From a virus: DNA of 48,443 nt. Below the pieces are notes generated by a model that was not told the origin of the DNA, did no database searches, and saw nothing but the letters and a program-made list of their open reading frames with translations. The translations under genes and the position numbers were made by a program. This document shows positions 7,567 to 48,443 of the stretch, in pieces. How positions within the stretch are numbered: position 1 is the stretch's first letter; each line of letters opens with the position of its first letter. The stretch is from IMG/VR virus record IMGVR_UViG_3300046413_001120, positions 1-48,443 of that record; one strand, given 5' to 3'.

Positions 7567-7830
7567 TCATTTATCTATGTCAAGATAATCCTCATCATCT
7601 TTCCACCATTCGTATTTTCGTTTACCTAATTGTCTATCATTCAAATTGTTCTTAAACTCTGTATTCCACTGCTCGTGTGTCATTACTCTCCAAAGTTTAC
7701 TAAACTCATCTCTATCTTCCATCTGTTTTATACCTTGAAAGAATGTAGTTGCACCAGCAACACCGATATCACTACCAAGGTCTGCTGATGTTACAATTTC
7801 ATCATATTTATTCACTAATACATATTTCAA
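7567..7830 (-). CDS. Hypothetical protein (87 aa)
   Basis: A soluble, charged protein beginning MKYVLVNKYDEIV, with a central glycine-containing stretch (DLGSDIGVAGATTFFQ) and a C-terminus rich in Trp and Asp (YEWWKDDEDYLDID). No motif is recognised. AGGAG lies 13 nt before the ATG. It sits between the lipoprotein and GroES genes in the same transcript. Function unknown. Confidence 0.55.
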   Translation of the reverse strand: MKYVLVNKYDEIVTSADLGSDIGVAGATTFFQGIKQMEDRDEFSKLWRVMTHEQWNTEFKNNLNDRQLGKRKYEWWKDDEDYLDIDK

Positions 7831-7839
7831 CTCTCTCTC

Positions 7840-8752: not shown

Positions 8753-9990
8753 AATTGTATTAAATCTTTCTCAGAAGTTTTAAGTGATTTGATTGTTATA
8801 TTAAATATATCCAACTCTGATATACCTAATTCTCCACTATCTTGTAGTATCGCAGGTAACTTCTCTATAATCTTAAAGTTCTCTTGTGTTAAATTACTTG
8901 CATCAAATCTAACAACTATCCCATCTGTAGGATTCATATGGTCTGAATGTATTCTCTTCTTCAAATCAAATGATGTTTGTTCTTCTTCAATGTATCTATT
9001 AGCACCAAATCCTTTATGTCCCACAAAATCACTATATATGTTATCACACCAAGGCTCTAACAATTGTAACATCTGTATATTACAATTCTCAACTACAAAC
9101 CCAATACTATATTTTGGTGGTACTATTGGTTTCATCATCTTATCGTGGTCTACAAAACTACCCCACTTTCGTATGAACTCTCGTGTACTCTTCTGATTCT
9201 GTTTCAACCACTCATCTGATTCTCGGTTCTTCATAAACACCTGTCCTGCAGGATTTCTTATCGCACCATCTTTAAATCTACTACCTCTACAAGTCATATG
9301 ATACACGAACCCCTGCCAAGTTTGAATAAATGTATATCCAGCAAGATGAAATCTATTGAATATATCTGAATCTTCTTTACTTTGTGGTGCAAATATAGGG
9401 TCGTGTCCACCAATGAAATCCCAATCCTCTTTCATAATAGCCCAAGGAGCGAATATACCCTCTGATATTTCTCGGTTTAATGCGAGTGGGCCATACTTAA
9501 TCCCATCTGAGTTTTTACTCTGTAAATCTTTTACAAACTCTAATAACTCATCTCTCTTAAACTCTTCAGGTTCTATACCAAAATCCATTAATATCTTTTC
9601 AGGTCCATCTGGATGTAGTGGTGGTTCTATTCTTGTTAATGATACAACTTTACCCTTTTCTAAATACTTATCAACCTCTTTATCTGAATTGGGTGTTAGA
9701 ATCATATCCGCGTGGAATATCATAACCCTATCGTGTGTTGCATAATCGTTAATTAATGTATCATATAGTATTGTATGTCCCAATCTATCTGGGCCTTTGT
9801 TGATATGAAGTTTGATATTCTTATCTCTCTTCATCCAAACTAATACTTGTTCCATTGTTCCATCAGTACTTGCATCATCTGCAATACATATCTCGTGTTC
9901 TACCGATTGGTTTTCACGAATACTCTCATATGCCTGTTTTAAATACTTTAGATTATTCCTCGATGGAATGATAAAACTAATTGGATTCAT
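8749..9990 (-). CDS. GT2-type glycosyltransferase (413 aa)
   Basis: The N-terminal 250 residues have the GT-A family 2 pattern: ISFIIPSRNNLKYLKQAYES at 4-23, ICIADDASTDGT at 35-46 and FHADM near 93 as the DxD-like metal/nucleotide-sugar site. About 130 extra C-terminal residues (from about 280) form an additional unrecognised domain. It would transfer a sugar from a nucleotide donor in the cytoplasm; donor and acceptor are unknown. AAAGGA precedes the ATG, and the gene overlaps the epimerase gene by 14 nt. Confidence 0.85.
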   Translation of the reverse strand: MNPISFIIPSRNNLKYLKQAYESIRENQSVEHEICIADDASTDGTMEQVLVWMKRDKNIKLHINKGPDRLGHTILYDTLINDYATHDRVMIFHADMILTPNSDKEVDKYLEKGKVVSLTRIEPPLHPDGPEKILMDFGIEPEEFKRDELLEFVKDLQSKNSDGIKYGPLALNREISEGIFAPWAIMKEDWDFIGGHDPIFAPQSKEDSDIFNRFHLAGYTFIQTWQGFVYHMTCRGSRFKDGAIRNPAGQVFMKNRESDEWLKQNQKSTREFIRKWGSFVDHDKMMKPIVPPKYSIGFVVENCNIQMLQLLEPWCDNIYSDFVGHKGFGANRYIEEEQTSFDLKKRIHSDHMNPTDGIVVRFDASNLTQENFKIIEKLPAILQDSGELGISELDIFNITIKSLKTSEKDLIQL

Positions 9991-10843
9991 TCACTTGTTC
10001 CTTTACCCATTTTATTAGGTTTTCTTTTGGTGCCCATCCGAGTAACTCACTTGCAGATTCATCTGTACAAAGTGTTTCTCTCATCTCACCTGGTCTTTTT
10101 GGTACTTTTACTTTTGGATGTTCTCCAAATGCATCTGCCAATTCATTAATAGAATAGTTTACTCCACTACCCAACTCAAAGAAGTTTCCATTAACTTCAC
10201 CATCAACCAATTTCTCGGCTGATTTAACTAATCCATCTACAATATCGTAAACATGCGTGAAATCTCTTCTTTGTTCTCCATCCCAAGTAATGGTTATATC
10301 TCTATTCTCTTCCCATTGTTTCATAAATACACCTACGACAGTACAATATTCCCCATCCACTAATTGTTTAGGCCCATATACATTGTAGAACCTACATACT
10401 ATTGTTGGTAAATCATATATCTGATGATATAGTTTCACTAATTCTTCACCTTGCCATTTACTAAATGAATAAGGATTTGCGTGTACATCTCCGTGTACTG
10501 ATGATGAACCAGCATAAACTAATGGTATGTTTTCTTTTCTAGCATATTCTAATACTCTCTGTGTACCTTGTGTGTTTGTATCAATTGTACTCGTTGGGTC
10601 ATCAAATGATGGTTGTATCCTTGCCAATGCAGCTAAATGAAATATACAATCAATACCATCTATCCCATCAAGAATACCATCCTCTCTAATATCTCCGTGA
10701 ATGTATCTGGCTTGTCCATGCTCGTTTGATTTAAAACCTGTGTAGTAATTATCTATTGAAATTACCTCGTGTCCATCTTCTAATAACCTTTTGATTAAAT
10801 TAGTGCCGATGAACCCAGCACCACCTGTTACTAATATATTCAT
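9977..10843 (-). CDS. NAD-dependent sugar epimerase/dehydratase
   Basis: The start was set at ATG 10843, which overlaps the previous stop (ATGA) and directly precedes the Rossmann motif ILVTGGAGFIG (residues 3-13). The SDR active site follows: SSSVHGD (Ser/Thr region, about 112-118) and NPYSFSK (Tyr-x3-Lys, about 122-128). The product (288 aa) is the size of UDP-glucose/GlcNAc 4-epimerases and dTDP-glucose dehydratases, and the sequence cannot separate these. It probably supplies an activated hexose to the glycosyltransferases around it. Confidence 0.88.
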   Translation of the reverse strand: MNILVTGGAGFIGTNLIKRLLEDGHEVISIDNYYTGFKSNEHGQARYIHGDIREDGILDGIDGIDCIFHLAALARIQPSFDDPTSTIDTNTQGTQRVLEYARKENIPLVYAGSSSVHGDVHANPYSFSKWQGEELVKLYHQIYDLPTIVCRFYNVYGPKQLVDGEYCTVVGVFMKQWEENRDITITWDGEQRRDFTHVYDIVDGLVKSAEKLVDGEVNGNFFELGSGVNYSINELADAFGEHPKVKVPKRPGEMRETLCTDESASELLGWAPKENLIKWVKEQVNESN

Positions 10844-42639: not shown

Positions 42640-45144
42640 TCAAAAAAATCTTTCAATACTTTGTTTTTTATCTACCACTGCTTCCCAACTTAATGCTTGA
42701 TAGAACATTCCTATTTTTTTACTCATTGCTTGTTCAAACATTCTATTGTGGTCGATATTATTTTTAATAAATTCTAATATTTGTGGTGGGTCCTCATATC
42801 CTTTATAACCAATTGCATCAAAACCAAACTCGTTATTCTTTAAATACACCCACTTAATTTTATTCCCATTGGTAATCTTCTCATATTTTCTACCCTCAAA
42901 CCAATGTAGTAAAATAGAATTATAATTGATTGCGGCCTTTACATGCACTGGTGCACCTTTCTTATATTTACTGAATGATGTTTCTTCATCCTCTTCAATA
43001 TACTTTCCTATACCCTTTACTCCAATAGGATTTGCCATTACCTCATAAGATAGGTTATGCATATTTCTTTTGAATACTGATATTCTTTCATCAATCTTTT
43101 CTTTTGGAACATCTGCAAGAATATCATCTAATACATTTTGTAATAAATCTTTCATAGCAGGAGCAAAATTACTTCTGACTGTATCCAAACCCTTTACTTG
43201 TGTTTTGTTTACTTTTCTACCCGCATCATTAATGATTCGTAATCCGTATCGTTTCTTTGTAACAAATAATCCAGTCTTTGCAACAACTTCTTGTTTAATA
43301 TCAAATACATGCTTATCGATATTCAAAAACTTCTTGGCAAAATAATCATAACTTGTGTTCAGATAATCTTGTACCTCTCCACATATCTCCATAATCCTCT
43401 GTGTCATCATTGTTTCAGATAATTTCTCATTGGGAAATCTTTTCTCTACCAAAGGAACTGCAGATGCAAAAATAGAATCTGTATCAATGTAGATAACATA
43501 ATCTTCATTTGTTCCTAATTCTTTATTGTAGAAATGATTAGTAATCTTTTTACTAAACTTAATTAATGATTGACCTGTTGTTGTGGTTGCTTCTGCATTA
43601 TCCAAATCATAGAATCTAAATACTGGTAACCCCAATACACCATATAATGAGTTTAAAAGAATCTTCTGTAGGTATTGTCTCCTATCAAAATATTGAGATT
43701 TCTTTTTATCACCTTGTTCGTGAAACTTCTTCACGAGTTTTCTCATCTCAACTCGTTCATTAAACCACTTTGTAAGTAGAGCAGGAATCAAACCTTGTTT
43801 ATCTGTACGATACATAACACCATTACTCGATATACTCAATCCAGTCTCATCCAAATAACTCTTTAATTCTGTATTGGTTATCTTTTGTATTTCCTTACCC
43901 TTTGTATTAATCATAGAATAAGTTTTATTGTGTCCTACCTTTAGATATTGTTCTGCATTCCAATCCTTTACTTGACCAACCTTAGTTTCAGGAGATATGT
44001 TCAATGAACGAATCACACTTGGATACATACTCGTGATATCCAAATCATAAACCCAATCGTGTTTACCTTTTTGTGGGTCTTGCACATATGCACCAGAGAA
44101 CTTTTCATCATCCCCTCTTCGTTTAGGATTTCTTGGTTTGTTTGGTGCAACAATACCCATCTTCTTTAAATAAACTAATATCGCACCCTCAAGATATCTT
44201 GAACTCATAAACACATCTTCATAAGGAACATGTCCTAAGTGTGCTATACCACACGCAACTCCAATGTAATCTAACTTATCATTTAATTCTACGAGAATAC
44301 GAACATCTCGAATATTATAATCTATAAACTTCTGTAAATCTTTTTCAAATAAATCATTGAGTGTTCCCTCATACTCAATCTTCTTCATACCAACTTCAAC
44401 TTCACCAATATAATCTAAACGATAACTTGATTGTTGAATTGGTGAAAACTTTTTATATAATGCAAGATAATCTAACACACTAACACCTGCAATAACAAAC
44501 TTCTTTTTATATTCATTGTAGTAACAATGTCTAATAGGTGATAACATCTTTGCAACTTCTGAACCCAAAACTCTGACTGTTCTATTATATAGATAAGGGA
44601 TATCAAAGAAATCTATATTCCAACCACTTAATATCGTTGGTTGTATTTCTGAATATTTTTGGTAAAATCTTGTTAATAATTCGTGTTCAGTTTTGAATAA
44701 CTCTACAAGTGTATCACCATCTTCATAATTTTGTATAGTATTTTTAGAATCTAAGGTATAACATATATACTTCTTTAGTATCTCATCATATAATGCAATA
44801 GATGTAATTGCAGTTTCTGCCTTCTCTACATCTGGAAAACCATCAACCACTTCCACCTCGATATCAAAATAGAAAGTTCTATTTCCCTCTGCAACATCAT
44901 CTGAATCCGTGTATTGGTCAACTAAAAATCTTGTAGTGATTGGTACATCACTTTCATATAAACTTGGGTCATCATCATCCCATTGGTAAACTTTTTTAAC
45001 TTTAGTACCATCAAGTGTGTGGTGTAACCCACTTGCATTTTTTACATATGCGTATTTTTTATAAGGTACAATAAGATGACCTCTTCTGTCATCCCAAACA
45101 TGCACTTTGTTTTTTCTCTTATCATAAAAAACATTTTGATACAT
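42640..45144 (-). CDS. 43: Family B DNA polymerase (gp43-like, 834 aa)
   Basis: Full-length replicative polymerase with 3'-5' exonuclease: exo I FYFDIEVE (91-98), exo II GWNIDFFDIPYL (174-185), exo III YNIRDVRI (276-283); polymerase motif A DLDITSMYPS (367-376), motif B KILLNSLYGV (494-503), motif C YIDTDSIF (552-559). The C-terminus ends in SIERFF, a PIP-like tail that could bind the clamp, as in T4 gp43. About 60 aa shorter than T4. Promoter P6 lies directly upstream. Confidence 0.96.
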   Translation of the reverse strand: MYQNVFYDKRKNKVHVWDDRRGHLIVPYKKYAYVKNASGLHHTLDGTKVKKVYQWDDDDPSLYESDVPITTRFLVDQYTDSDDVAEGNRTFYFDIEVEVVDGFPDVEKAETAITSIALYDEILKKYICYTLDSKNTIQNYEDGDTLVELFKTEHELLTRFYQKYSEIQPTILSGWNIDFFDIPYLYNRTVRVLGSEVAKMLSPIRHCYYNEYKKKFVIAGVSVLDYLALYKKFSPIQQSSYRLDYIGEVEVGMKKIEYEGTLNDLFEKDLQKFIDYNIRDVRILVELNDKLDYIGVACGIAHLGHVPYEDVFMSSRYLEGAILVYLKKMGIVAPNKPRNPKRRGDDEKFSGAYVQDPQKGKHDWVYDLDITSMYPSVIRSLNISPETKVGQVKDWNAEQYLKVGHNKTYSMINTKGKEIQKITNTELKSYLDETGLSISSNGVMYRTDKQGLIPALLTKWFNERVEMRKLVKKFHEQGDKKKSQYFDRRQYLQKILLNSLYGVLGLPVFRFYDLDNAEATTTTGQSLIKFSKKITNHFYNKELGTNEDYVIYIDTDSIFASAVPLVEKRFPNEKLSETMMTQRIMEICGEVQDYLNTSYDYFAKKFLNIDKHVFDIKQEVVAKTGLFVTKKRYGLRIINDAGRKVNKTQVKGLDTVRSNFAPAMKDLLQNVLDDILADVPKEKIDERISVFKRNMHNLSYEVMANPIGVKGIGKYIEEDEETSFSKYKKGAPVHVKAAINYNSILLHWFEGRKYEKITNGNKIKWVYLKNNEFGFDAIGYKGYEDPPQILEFIKNNIDHNRMFEQAMSKKIGMFYQALSWEAVVDKKQSIERFF

Positions 45145-45176: not shown

Positions 45177-45206
45177 AATATAACACTAAAACCATATACT
45201 TGTCAA
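45177..45206 (-). promoter_or_regulatory. Sigma70-type promoter P6
   Basis: TTGACA (45206-45201), an 18-nt spacer and TATATT (45182-45177), about 35 nt before the polymerase ATG. The preceding AAAAAAGTAC is shared with P5. It separates the TonB-receptor unit from the replication unit. Confidence 0.8.
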
Positions 45207-45222
45207 GTACTTTTTTGATAAA

Positions 45223-45246
45223 TGGGGGATATTTTTCAATCCCCCA
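45223..45246 (-). terminator. Possible terminator after the TonB receptor gene
   Basis: TGGGGGAT (45223-45230) and ATCCCCCA (45239-45246) make an 8-bp G/C stem with an 8-nt loop, 10-20 nt after the receptor stop. The minus-strand sequence after it (TTTATC) has only a few U residues, so termination may be weak or the hairpin may protect mRNA ends. Confidence 0.45.
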
Positions 45247-45256
45247 AATCACCATT

Positions 45257-47995
45257 TTAAAAATCAATAGTTAATCCTATGTTTGCATATCTTGGTGTTC
45301 CAAGAAATACTTCAGAATTATGAGCTAAGTGAAGTTTATCACCATACCCATTGTATTTACTATTGTCAACGGCATCTTGTACGAAAACTTCATCAAGTGC
45401 GTTAAAGATGTGACCTGTAATAGTCAAATCTAAACCACCAATACTTGGAAGTTTGTAAGATGCGTGTAAATCAAGTTTTGAGTAACCAGGAGCTTCCCAA
45501 ACTTGTGTTCTATCTGCAACTCCATCAGAATCCACTTCTCTTGAATCAGGACTCCAATCTGCATAGTTCTTATCATATACATTGTAAAGTGCTTGTAATC
45601 TCAATCCCTTAATAGGTTTAAGTGTTACACCCAATATATAAGATGATTGTGGTTGGTCACCAACAAATAAACCATCAAGTGCATATGCATATTCAGTAGT
45701 TTGATAACCAATTACTTGGTTGTCATCGTTATATTGAGATTCTTGGTAAGTACCATTGGCATCACCATCGAATTTCCAACCACCGAATGAAGCAATTAAA
45801 TCAAGTTCTACCATATCGTGTGGTAATACTTTTACTTCAAGTTCTGTACCTTGATGTTTCTGATTAACACCTCTTAAAAAGATTACATCAGTATCACCTG
45901 AATCACCTTGACCCGTGTCAACATTACGAGTAAGGTTTCTATCTTTCCAATCTGTGTTATATACGGAAACATTAACTGCAACTTTATCATTTGCATATCC
46001 CAGTCCAACTTCTGTTGATAAGAATTTCTCATTATCTGGGTCGGATGAGACCGTACCAGAATAATCAATTACATTATCAAGAATTGGTGCTTTTTCTACA
46101 TATCCTGAGTTGATGAATGAAGTAACACCTGGAATAATTTCATAGTGTACTCCACCTTTAACTTGAAATGATGAAATAGCATCGGCAGTAATTTTCTCGT
46201 TTTCTACTGAAAAATGGTCTTGATATGAGTATTGAATAGATGATACCCCACCCATTCCATATACATTTAGATTATCTTTCGTGTAGTTACCTTGAACAAA
46301 TCCACCTAACCAATCGACAGTAGTAGTGTTGTGATAAGCAATAATATCACCTAAACCAACAACTTTCCCATCTGGTGCATTTTTATCTGCAAAATCAACA
46401 TAGTAATCACCACCTAATAAATCACGAACTTCACGAGCGTGTTCTATTTCAGCAGTTCTCCAGTCAATACCTGTCTGAAACTCTAAATTATCATTTACTT
46501 TGTAATTTAATTTAGAGATTAATCCGTATGTGTCCTGTCTGTTGATTGAGTTTCTAAGAATACCTGTGGAACGCTTGTCTGTTTCAGAGTAATCAGCATC
46601 GATATTAGTACGATTCTGTTCAATCTCTCCATTCCAATCCCACATCCAAGGCGAACTTGAATACCAAGCATTATCTGCTACAGCAGGTGTTCTCATTACA
46701 CTACCATAAGTACCAGTTCCACCACCTGAACCACCACTCCAATAAAGAACTGATGATAATTTAGTTTTATCATTTATCTCTAAAAAGTGATTTAGATTCA
46801 CTAATGGTTTATGGAAGAAATTCTCCCTTTCATTAAGAAAGTTTGAATTGTATCTTTTGGTTGTGTTTGCTCCATACATATACCAATATTGTTCTCCAGT
46901 GTAGTCGGAACTAACTGGTGCCCAATTTTGACTAAAGAATCTACCAGCTTCAGTTTCGAATTTGTTACCCTCTGCAAAAGCATCAGTATCATATCCGTCA
47001 ATATCACCAGCTAACTCTTGTGAGTAAGTAGCAATATTCTGTTTGTATAGATTTTGTCCGTGTCTTTGTGGAGCACCGATTGCATACAACTCAAATCGTT
47101 GTTTATCGGATACTGCGTAAGAACTTCCAAAATAATAAGCCCAAGCATCTGTCCAGTTTCCATCAATGATACCATCACCAGTCTTACGAACAATTGTTCC
47201 AGCCAGTGCAAGTTTATCACCAATTAAACCTGTATTATAGTTAATAGTAGTTTTAAGAAAACCACCATCTCCTGTTTCTTGTTTGAACTTACCACCCTTT
47301 TCATATTTAGCAGGGTCTGTAATGATATTCATAGTTCCACCAATAGAAGGTGTTGCTAAATTAACAGCAGATAGTCCTCTTTGTAACTGAATAGATTGAG
47401 CAGCATCTGCAACTCCATCCCAATTACTCCAATAAACCCATCCGTTCTCCATATCATTTTGGGGAACACCATTAATCATTACCGCAACATTTCGTTGGTT
47501 AAATCCACGAACATTGATTCTTGCATCACCAGCACCACCACCTTGTTGAGTTGCATATACACTTGGTGTAGTATTCAAAGCCATTGGAACATCTTGAGAA
47601 CCTAATCTCAATTCCATTTCTTCTTTACTAACCATTGAATAAGCAACAGGTGTTGTTGCAACAGCTCTTGAAGCCAAAACTTCAACATCTGTTAGAGTAA
47701 GAGCATCAACTGCCAAAGCAATATCTACTTTTACTTCACTATCACTCACAACAACCTCTTTAGATTGAGATGAGTATCCTATGAATGAAGCAGTAATAGT
47801 ATAAGTTCCAGCTTCTACTGAAATTGTAGTAAGACCTGTCTCGTTAGTAACACCACCGAGTTCAGTTCCCTCTACCACTACATTTGCTCCAACCAAAGGG
47901 TTATATTCTGCATCTTTAACATCAACAACGATGGATTGAGCGAACAATCCTGTCATCAATACGAAAGATGCTATTAGTTTACGATATATATTCAT
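45257..47995 (-). CDS. TonB-dependent outer membrane receptor with CarboxypepD-reg-like domain (912 aa)
   Basis: Signal peptide (about 1-19, MNIYRKLIASFVLMTGLFAQ), then a beta-sandwich CarboxypepD_reg-like domain (about 22-100, LVGANVVVEGTELGGVTNET), a TonB-box-like VEVLASR, and a plug (about 115-230, with INVRGFNQRNVAVMINGVP and SIGGTMNIIT). The rest is a 22-strand-type barrel ending in IGLTIDF with a C-terminal Phe. Length is normal and intact. This layout is characteristic of FCB-group bacteria. It imports substrates across the outer membrane using TonB energy. GAGGAG 7 nt before the ATG. Very unusual in a phage; substrate unknown. Confidence 0.93.
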   Translation of the reverse strand: MNIYRKLIASFVLMTGLFAQSIVVDVKDAEYNPLVGANVVVEGTELGGVTNETGLTTISVEAGTYTITASFIGYSSQSKEVVVSDSEVKVDIALAVDALTLTDVEVLASRAVATTPVAYSMVSKEEMELRLGSQDVPMALNTTPSVYATQQGGGAGDARINVRGFNQRNVAVMINGVPQNDMENGWVYWSNWDGVADAAQSIQLQRGLSAVNLATPSIGGTMNIITDPAKYEKGGKFKQETGDGGFLKTTINYNTGLIGDKLALAGTIVRKTGDGIIDGNWTDAWAYYFGSSYAVSDKQRFELYAIGAPQRHGQNLYKQNIATYSQELAGDIDGYDTDAFAEGNKFETEAGRFFSQNWAPVSSDYTGEQYWYMYGANTTKRYNSNFLNERENFFHKPLVNLNHFLEINDKTKLSSVLYWSGGSGGGTGTYGSVMRTPAVADNAWYSSSPWMWDWNGEIEQNRTNIDADYSETDKRSTGILRNSINRQDTYGLISKLNYKVNDNLEFQTGIDWRTAEIEHAREVRDLLGGDYYVDFADKNAPDGKVVGLGDIIAYHNTTTVDWLGGFVQGNYTKDNLNVYGMGGVSSIQYSYQDHFSVENEKITADAISSFQVKGGVHYEIIPGVTSFINSGYVEKAPILDNVIDYSGTVSSDPDNEKFLSTEVGLGYANDKVAVNVSVYNTDWKDRNLTRNVDTGQGDSGDTDVIFLRGVNQKHQGTELEVKVLPHDMVELDLIASFGGWKFDGDANGTYQESQYNDDNQVIGYQTTEYAYALDGLFVGDQPQSSYILGVTLKPIKGLRLQALYNVYDKNYADWSPDSREVDSDGVADRTQVWEAPGYSKLDLHASYKLPSIGGLDLTITGHIFNALDEVFVQDAVDNSKYNGYGDKLHLAHNSEVFLGTPRYANIGLTIDF

Positions 47996-48019
47996 AAATC
48001 GTCTCCTCTGTTTGTTTTG

Positions 48020-48049
48020 TTAAGACACATTTTTTACCAGGTGTGTCAA
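48020..48049 (-). promoter_or_regulatory. Weak promoter-like site with inverted repeat, TonB gene leader
   Basis: TTGACA (48049-48044) lies 18 nt before TCTTAA (48025-48020), matching the -35 and spacing of P1-P6 but with a poor -10. The inverted repeat GACACA (48024-48029)/TGTGTC (48042-48047) spans the same region. It could be a low-activity promoter, an operator, or a stem separating the RNR and receptor genes. Confidence 0.35.
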
Positions 48050-48079
48050 CTGCCTGTGTATGTGAAGTTTTCCACATAT

Positions 48080-48443
48080 TTAGTTTGCGTAATCTTGGTC
48101 ATCATTATCACCAGTTGTCGGTGTGATTTCTACATCACAAAAATCACCATCACAAAATTTTTCTATATTTGCTTCTTCCGCCTTGATTACACCAAAGTTT
48201 AATTTACCAAGTTTCTTAACATCTTTATTATATTGTTTTTCATCAATTGCTTCATACGGCATTTGTTTGTATGCTCCATAATCGTGTCTTGGTAGTAAAC
48301 TAATTCCCTTTAAATGATATTGAAAATAGTTTAATACTTGTGGTATCATTTCACCCTCTGTATCAGGATTAAATGTGACAGTACAACTTACTTGATTATC
48401 AGCCCAATGTCTTTGCATAAATGCTGCTAAACTGAATTGTTCC
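48080..48443 (-). CDS. Class II (AdoCbl-dependent) ribonucleotide reductase, C-terminal part
   Basis: The frame is open to the window edge; the gene starts outside. RHWADNQVSCTVTFNPDTEG and ISLLPRHDYGAYKQMPYEAI are conserved C-terminal segments of monomeric B12-dependent RTPR-type enzymes, and the end has CDGDFC, a C-x4-C pair that in Lactobacillus RTPR (C-terminal cysteines) re-reduces the active site. It makes dNTPs from NTPs for phage DNA replication with adenosylcobalamin. The stop at 48080 is 84 nt upstream of the TonB receptor gene. It ends with an acidic tail. Confidence 0.9.
   Translation of the reverse strand, partial: EQFSLAAFMQRHWADNQVSCTVTFNPDTEGEMIPQVLNYFQYHLKGISLLPRHDYGAYKQMPYEAIDEKQYNKDVKKLGKLNFGVIKAEEANIEKFCDGDFCDVEITPTTGDNDDQDYAN

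Follow-up and report, generated by a model that had tools for sequence, protein, structure and literature searches.

TonB-dependent receptors (TBDRs) such as FhuA serve as receptors for phages (PMC11658791), and receptor genes of this type are also known from phage genomes themselves. The available portions of the corresponding papers report an annotated SusC in Mar_Mega_1, with a suggested rise in carbohydrate uptake during infection (PMC9723777), and annotated TBDRs in the pelagiphage Skadi (PMC10504331) and in hot-spring phages (PMC6302217); within those portions there is no mention of an RNA element, a mini-TonB or capture by a host. Putative Marinimicrobia viruses are mentioned in two further papers, the available text of which does not speak of TonB (PMC11019789, PMC9948707). 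Among RNA elements, the nearest known phage case is the leader of T4 gene 32, described in the accessible text as an H-type pseudoknot operator bound by protein (PMC535899, PMC3014915). Here we report on a TBDR gene in the virus record IMGVR_UViG_3300046413_001120, the 48,443 bases of which were analysed as one stretch (hereafter the window). What is unusual about it is its conserved ownership by phages, a leader pseudoknot that is apparently undescribed (no match in Rfam or in a full-text search of open papers), the presence of short TonB proteins (mini-TonBs) in some related phages and an apparent capture of the gene by a host. We consider it most likely that this is an uptake gene which the phage would run under translational control; to the fuller reading, namely that of a long-term phage gene for TonB-dependent uptake, of Marinimicrobia-type origin and under phage-specific pseudoknot control, we assign a probability of about one half.

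The gene forms a single ATG-to-stop frame of 912 codons without an internal stop on the minus strand (Table 1). An earlier sequence-only reading had described an intact, full-length gene with a signal peptide, a carboxypeptidase-like domain, a plug and a barrel, flanked by genes for a phage ribonucleotide reductase (RNR) and a phage polymerase (PolB), and both descriptions are borne out by the frame, the Pfam matches, the structure models and the PHROG matches on either side; the probable signal peptide was recognized by inspection. In the segment that we take, from its consensus, to be the TonB box, the core E105-R110 is invariant across 68 aligned phage and host rows. A first AlphaFold2 model built from 68 sequences (pLDDT 72.6) gave a good barrel and a poor plug, and a second from 80 sequences, the input of which also took in host paralogues of about 32–37% identity, gave a formed plug together with the barrel (pLDDT 84.4, pTM 0.79). 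Barrel strands were counted and assigned by manual reading of the DSSP output, the turns on the periplasmic side being short and the outer loops long. In fold comparisons VIA-align ranked BtuB (Z 38.0), Fiu (37.4) and FyuA (36.4) highest, at 14–17% identity, and Foldseek placed PqqU first, which together identify a canonical TonB-dependent transporter fold without resolving the ligand. More generally, BtuB, Fiu, FhuA and other siderophore or cobalamin receptors share the plug-and-barrel architecture (Z 33–38) at 12–17% identity, a resemblance from which the ligand cannot be deduced. SusC was not among the rows shown by either program, which proves nothing; next to the TBDR genes stand RNR and PolB, or else different phage genes, with no SusD model searched as such, and NCBIfam profiles gave only matches far below their cut-offs. 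The protein is thus predicted to be a canonical plug-and-barrel TBDR, ordinary in its fold.

The same gene had been proposed to be worth seeking in related virus contigs, and it was found there in large numbers. Three IMG/VR protein scans detected 306–318 relatives each, of which the best 80 of each were taken, so that the gene counts given here describe a sample, drawn from records whose completeness is not established. This sample comprised 215 loci with 129 distinct TBDR genes, 126 of them complete, 3 cut by contig ends and none broken. Where enough sequence was available, 111 of 125 loci have RNR as the immediate upstream neighbour (within 300 bases), and 89 of 105 have PolB no more than 2.5 kb downstream; several of the exceptions have one extra intervening gene and others a different neighbourhood. 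Across 11 informative close pairs dN/dS ranged from 0.09 to 0.27 (mean 0.15), a twelfth pair (L009/L010) being left out as it showed no amino-acid change; for the window and its relative L003, dN was 0.022 and dS 0.137. Among INPHARED phages there were only 12 matches, all below 32% identity, two of which cover most of the protein (30.5–31.8%). These patterns indicate that the TBDR is a lineage trait kept under purifying selection in viruses. They also bear on the suspicion that the gene is an artefact of assembly or of host contamination, for which a chimeric join at 45.2 or 48.0 kb had been named as the telling sign. The RNR-TBDR-PolB junctions recur in many contigs, including members 94–100% identical, and in several others the gene order is kept with a TBDR 96–97% and a PolB 94% identical to those of the window; such an artefact is so improbable that it can practically be set aside.

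A comparison of leaders revealed the second component of the locus. After identical ones were dropped, 128 viral leaders left 109 distinct sequences, of which 107 fit the geometry of a compact H-type pseudoknot, as against 26 of 2180 dinucleotide shuffles. Host leaders, counted without L082, L128 and L130, fit the loose geometry in 7 of 47 cases, all with unrelated AT-rich letters. Both loops are strongly conserved, the first being mostly CAGNN and the third mostly NNNAAAAA, and in the commonest spacings the element ends 19–36 bases before the start codon (28 in the window). Across 82 distinct elements, including the two that fail the geometry, 99.6% of the cells were paired, compared with 20–61% for slid versions of the stems. 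Changes on both sides were seen in 5 of the 10 stem pairs, with 57 doubly changed cells, a number reached in none of 500 shuffles. Furthermore, when mapped onto the gene tree the pair states show at least 5, 4, 5, 16 and 11 changes (a sum of at least 41), and the stems hold five G-U cells, consistent with pairing at the level of RNA. This points to an RNA pseudoknot, with interleaved DNA repeats as the formal alternative. Minimum-energy folding of the window leader, a procedure that cannot form pseudoknots, did no better than shuffles (z -0.14).

In the records that were examined, this gene alone carries the element. When DNA was scanned with the element pattern, which was modelled on TBDR leaders, at least 119 stretches were returned, several on contigs already present in the protein scans, and at newly fetched loci the element stood directly before the TBDR start in 114 of 114 cases among the matches listed (107 recognized by blastx and 7 by a typical start at the contig end). 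Each of 14 large viral records carries one TBDR and one element, with up to three mismatches allowed, and no further copies were found in those records. The window itself has one clean match, and one other with four G-U pairs that we take as chance. The pattern occurred in none of 244 Marinimicrobia genomes, and the 4227 models of Rfam 15 gave nothing at gathering score in the window, the region 47900–48250 having only sub-threshold matches to unrelated models (E 0.59–2.9). Two loci, L028 and L036, have an upstream gene other than RNR and nevertheless keep the element, which suggests that it belongs to the TBDR. The sequence-only reading had named a phage-type promoter for the gene and had missed the pseudoknot. 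Such a promoter is not supported, for among the 109 viral leaders TTGACA occurs in 9 and TATAAATA in none, and the best sigma-70-like site precedes PolB instead. The ribosome-binding motif AGGAG, by comparison, is present in 104 of the 109.

How such an element might act can be considered against the T4 gene 32 pseudoknot, which resembles it in being of the H type, about 30 nucleotides long and upstream of the ribosome site of a phage gene. Gene 32, however, encodes the very protein that binds its pseudoknot, whereas the present element was found only before the TBDR; the 150 nucleotides before a gp32-like gene on the related phage contig L443 contain no pseudoknot of the scanned geometry. A small-molecule riboswitch that senses the substrate of the transporter, rather than a protein operator or a stability element, would be compatible with any of the readings of the protein and is a possibility that we hold tentatively, at well under even odds. 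The compactness and strongly conserved loops of the element would suit this role, as would its position before this transporter gene only; on the other hand, it was not found in host TBDR leaders or in the Marinimicrobia genomes, the nearest known phage case is a protein-bound operator, and no conserved alternative fold that masks the Shine-Dalgarno (SD) sequence emerged, the candidate switch in which the 3' strand of S2 does so occurring in 48 of 107 leaders versus 855 of 2140 controls and hence not supported.

The FCB-type host that had been suggested, such as Marinimicrobia, agrees with the kinship of the genes: 54 of 61 GTDB matches are titled Marinimicrobia or Neomarinimicrobiota, and by gene kinship alone Marinimicrobia are probably the hosts of these viruses. 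For the phylogeny of the receptor against host genomes, which had been proposed as a check, an alignment (A1) combined 24 host rows and the host row L083 with the window and 42 of the 48 representatives of viral clusters; careful trees were built from 43 of its full-length rows, 25 out of the 43 viral ones and 18 out of the remaining 25. In the full-length tree all 25 viral rows and L083 fall on one side of a single branch (100/100), L083 is nested among the viral rows (100/98), and an approximately unbiased test rejects a group made up of viral rows only (p 0.0013). When the first 110 residues are removed, L083 still lies inside the main viral group (100/99), and four viral rows, L237, L245, L252 and L264, all of which carry the leader element, join host sequences (99/95); forcing all viral rows together is then rejected (p 0.002). 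A single origin of all viral copies accordingly fits the full protein except for L083 and fails without the first 110 residues. Since the four rows change sides in this way, the transporter body either entered these phages on more than one occasion or was substituted through recombination, whereas their 5' end has a viral look. Distances between TBDRs are weakly correlated with those between polymerases (Mantel r 0.19, 94 loci, none of 999 permutations as high), and L047 and L249 share 81% identity in the TBDR and 28% in the polymerase; the TBDR thus appears to have been exchanged between phages. As a separate observation, L063 and L249 have the usual RNR-TBDR order and, further downstream, a polymerase only 26–27% identical to that of the window, which looks like a replacement of the polymerase.

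Chromosomal TBDRs of Marinimicrobia have the same domains, TonB box and plug as the phage proteins, with about 51–69% full-length identity in the orthologous group and 35–43% for other copies. They differ in their more variable outer loops, in that no leader pseudoknot of the phage pattern was found, and in having no phage-type RNR or PolB alongside. The exceptions to the last point, L082 and L128, come from metagenome-assembled genomes (MAGs) assigned to Flavobacteriales and Euryarchaeota; because RNR adjoins their TBDR and their rows fall among the viral ones, both are probably contigs of viruses that binning placed in MAGs. By kinship, tree, conservation and dN/dS, the TBDR is a host-derived gene that phages carry and maintain, as is expected of an auxiliary metabolic gene.

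L083 is a different matter. This contig of 4,266 bases, from a Marinimicrobia MAG, contains a partial DegT aminotransferase gene, a phage-type TBDR and the beginning of a second one. In its small-genome relatives (0.7–1.0 Mb), for which three candidates per genome were scored, the best match is a TBDR about 36–40% identical to that of the phage. In 11 fetched regions of relatives, a DegT homologue (81–90% identity) adjoins the native TBDR in 7, and the start of the native TBDR is 60–78% identical to the second TBDR of L083 in all 11, an arrangement from which it follows that the phage-type gene of L083 sits between degT and the native TBDR. The last leader bases and the signal peptide of this gene nearly match those of the native neighbour on the same contig, and the phage leader pattern is absent from it. 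The simplest reading of this one MAG contig is an apparent capture of a phage gene by a host, which refitted it with host signals, as would be expected if the protein works as a transporter in a cell. Across 245 genomes of the phylum no other match covering most of the protein reaches the 69% of L083, and two partial matches (255 and 396 residues) reach 69–70%. Seven host neighbour proteins scanned for a clue to the substrate gave none: DnaG, SRAP, a GBBH-like N-terminal domain, DegT, a CvpA-like protein, a peptidoglycan-binding protein and one without a match.

Three functions had been offered for the receptor, namely nutrient uptake, replacement or masking of the receptor used by the phage, and superinfection control. 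Uptake fits best, since phage and host proteins share a conserved TonB box, a conserved plug and a large part of the outer loops. With L083 kept out of the host set, identity between viral and host sequences is 0.88 in the plug, 0.67 in the strands and 0.61 in the outer loops, and 72 of 121 plug positions and 80 of 329 outer-loop positions are invariant over both. At a matched strand identity of 0.74, again without L083, viral loops are 0.73 alike as against 0.63 for host loops, a difference of 0.097 (0.075–0.114 in 60 row resamples) to which host ligand diversity could have contributed by inflating host loop variation. Median lengths in viral and host sets are 94 and 101 for outer loop L3, 50 and 63 for L4 and 45 and 40 for L9. 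The conservation of the viral loops, although no proof of one ligand, speaks against a decoy in an arms race, that is, a phage protein that replaces or mimics the phage's own receptor and so keeps progeny and debris off infected cells. The lambdoid phage PA-2, with its phage-encoded porin altering phage sensitivity, offers a precedent for receptor replacement, and TBDRs are themselves known phage receptors, as noted above. A decoy would, however, need neither the TonB box, with its invariant core, nor the plug, which is the most conserved part of the protein; the outer loops of the phage protein do not diverge from those of the host in an arms-race manner, and no position is fixed (at least 90% of each set) for different residues in the two. 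The margin of some 10 points by which viral loops exceed host loops in conservation weakens the case for masking or replacement, which we regard as improbable.

Superinfection control is kept in play because some related phages encode a secreted TonB C-terminal domain. TonB_C was detected in 5 of 15 TBDR records, the same 5 with a family profile, and ExbD in none of the 15. One of them, the 67-kb record G258 (contig L443), has a TBDR 100% identical to that of the window, and its mini-TonB lies about 8 kb upstream of the TBDR, past the right end of the window. A pattern-limited scan yielded 41 viral mini-TonB loci, all short and without a membrane anchor visible on inspection, the start being signal-peptide-like where it is held (L469 is cut there); topology was read by inspection, and an uncleaved start could serve as an anchor. 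TBDR matches occur in 12 of the 41 records, of which 10 were counted (at least 55% identity); the other two, G288 and G289, match only in 21 residues at the extreme C-terminus and may have another protein with a similar outer-membrane end signal. No INPHARED phage matched the mini-TonB. It shares TonB_C (PF03544) with cellular TonB, but at about 100–120 residues lacks a visible anchor or long linker, whereas many host matches are frames of about 205–240 residues; small host forms of about 117–142 residues exist too. A mini-TonB near the viral ones is also present in L489 (G175 contig 64), from a MAG of the Marinimicrobia phylum, which like L082 and L128 is probably a binning error or from an infected cell. 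An interpretation of the motif PFxLxYxDLP as D-box-like, by comparison with the available text of PMC10907165, was dropped, as it is more likely part of the C-terminal domain. Near the mini-TonB gene of L443 are a type IV pilin-like gene with an N-methylation motif (PF07963; 9135-9575, minus strand), an adjoining gene with a pilin-like start and no Pfam match (9610-10257, minus strand), and, beside the mini-TonB gene on the opposite strand, a 64-residue frame that begins like a signal peptide and contains a long stretch of lysines (7642-7836, plus strand).

In E. coli, TonB is inhibited by fragments of itself that reside in the periplasm, an effect that our literature search did not bring up. 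By analogy, the phage TBDR together with an exported, soluble TonB C-terminal domain occupying TonB boxes in some members could control the cell surface, blocking TonB-dependent phages and bacteriocins or altering the usable receptors. The co-occurrence of the two genes in some records and the lack of detectable ExbD accord with this, and the sugar region of the window (see below) is another possible surface-changing module. Yet the viral outer loops are unusually conserved instead of diversifying, the phage TBDR has a host-type TonB box and would be blocked as well, and no mini-TonB was detected in 10 of the 15 TBDR records, all of which may be fragments. As a full account of the gene, surface control therefore seems doubtful to us, and it may be the main rival of uptake or a second layer to it, with phages both using and interfering with the host Ton system.

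Table 1. Features of the TBDR locus in the window, with the mini-TonB of a related record
Feature	Position	Strand	Evidence
Phage RNR, C-terminal part, cut at window end	48080..48443	-	phrog_367, 4.9e-17
H-type RNA pseudoknot in TBDR leader (predicted)	48024..48056	-	leader comparison, covariation
Pseudoknot stem S1	CAGG 48053-48056 with CCTG 48038-48041	-	
Pseudoknot stem S2	GACACA 48042-48047 with TGTGTC 48024-48029	-	
Pseudoknot loops	L1 48048-48052; A-rich L3 48030-48037	-	
Shine-Dalgarno AGGAG	48003..48007	-	leader comparison
TBDR, intact, 912 aa	45257..47995	-	open reading frame, Pfam, AlphaFold2, fold comparison
Probable signal peptide, residues 1-20, end LFAQ	47936..47995	-	by inspection
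Carboxypeptidase-regulatory-like domain, residues 26-106	47678..47920	-	PF13715 (CarbopepD_reg_2), 1.3e-14
Probable TonB box DVEVLASR, residues 103-110	47666..47689	-	alignment
Plug domain, residues 113-221	47333..47659	-	PF07715, 1e-14, above cut-off
Beta barrel, residues 234-912, with 22 strands and 11 outer loops by manual reading	45260..47296	-	DSSP of models
Stable hairpin just 3' of TBDR stop, possible transcript end	45216..45254	-	-18.8 kcal/mol, z -2.8
Sigma-70-like promoter match, 11/12, before PolB	45177..45206	-	site scan
Phage family-B DNA polymerase (PolB), next gene downstream	42640..45144	-	phrog_262, 5e-183
Mini-TonB, 122 aa	L443:7888-8256, record G258	-	TonB_C PF03544, 1.3e-11; profile, inspection

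As for the surroundings of the gene, PolB is followed on its 3' side by a clamp-like and then a clamp-loader gene. The hairpin behind the TBDR stop and the sigma-70-like site after it (45177-45254) may make the TBDR a separate transcription unit; the hairpin was not among the terminator-like sites of the promoter and terminator scan, which overall found 11 sigma-70-like sites against 14.6 in shuffles, that is, fewer than chance. Elsewhere in the window, positions 8749-31022 on the minus strand form a large sugar or lipopolysaccharide-like region with genes for glycosyltransferases, a nucleotide-sugar epimerase, an aminotransferase and a phosphoheptose isomerase. A T4-type gp23 capsid protein was detected in 3 of the 15 records of the group.

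Taken together, the favoured course of events would be as follows. The TBDR derives from a Marinimicrobia-type host gene and has been held by purifying selection. During infection its leader would fold just upstream of the ribosome site into the pseudoknot, a phage-specific cis-regulator of this gene alone that could raise or lower its expression. The protein would then be exported and inserted in the outer membrane, where host ExbBD-TonB would power it through the conserved TonB box, so that the infected cell may take up a scarce, large solute while virus is produced, to the presumed benefit of the phage. Several observations weigh against this account. The body of the transporter has been swapped (r = 0.19, and a host-like barrel in 4 of 25 viral rows), so that one constant substrate is not assured, and the fold comparison, with BtuB or PqqU as the best match, singles out no ligand. 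Of five measures of covariation, two are no different from shuffles: the number of pairs changed on both sides was reached in 39 of 500 shuffles, and that of further pair types in 488. An SD-occluding fold as the mode of action of the pseudoknot is not supported. Finally, a secreted mini-TonB is unlike simple energised uptake and could compete for TonB boxes. A broader picture, possible but distinctly less probable to our mind, is that marine T4-type phages of Marinimicrobia carry a Ton module of their own, with a pseudoknot-switched TBDR and, in some, an anchorless TonB domain that on export redirects or shuts host Ton traffic; in it the body of the transporter is swapped, the RNA switch and 5' end are kept, and hosts recapture the gene.

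Outer-membrane transporters are usually the receptors that phages attack, and here a virus lineage has long kept a copy of its own, which comes with what appears to be its own RNA control. Should this RNA prove to sense a solute or a phage protein, it would count as a small regulatory pseudoknot of a new kind, the readout of which is clear. The history of the gene suggests movement from host to virus and back to host, and the locus offers a testable route to how marine viruses may feed or seal the infected cell of a largely uncultured phylum.

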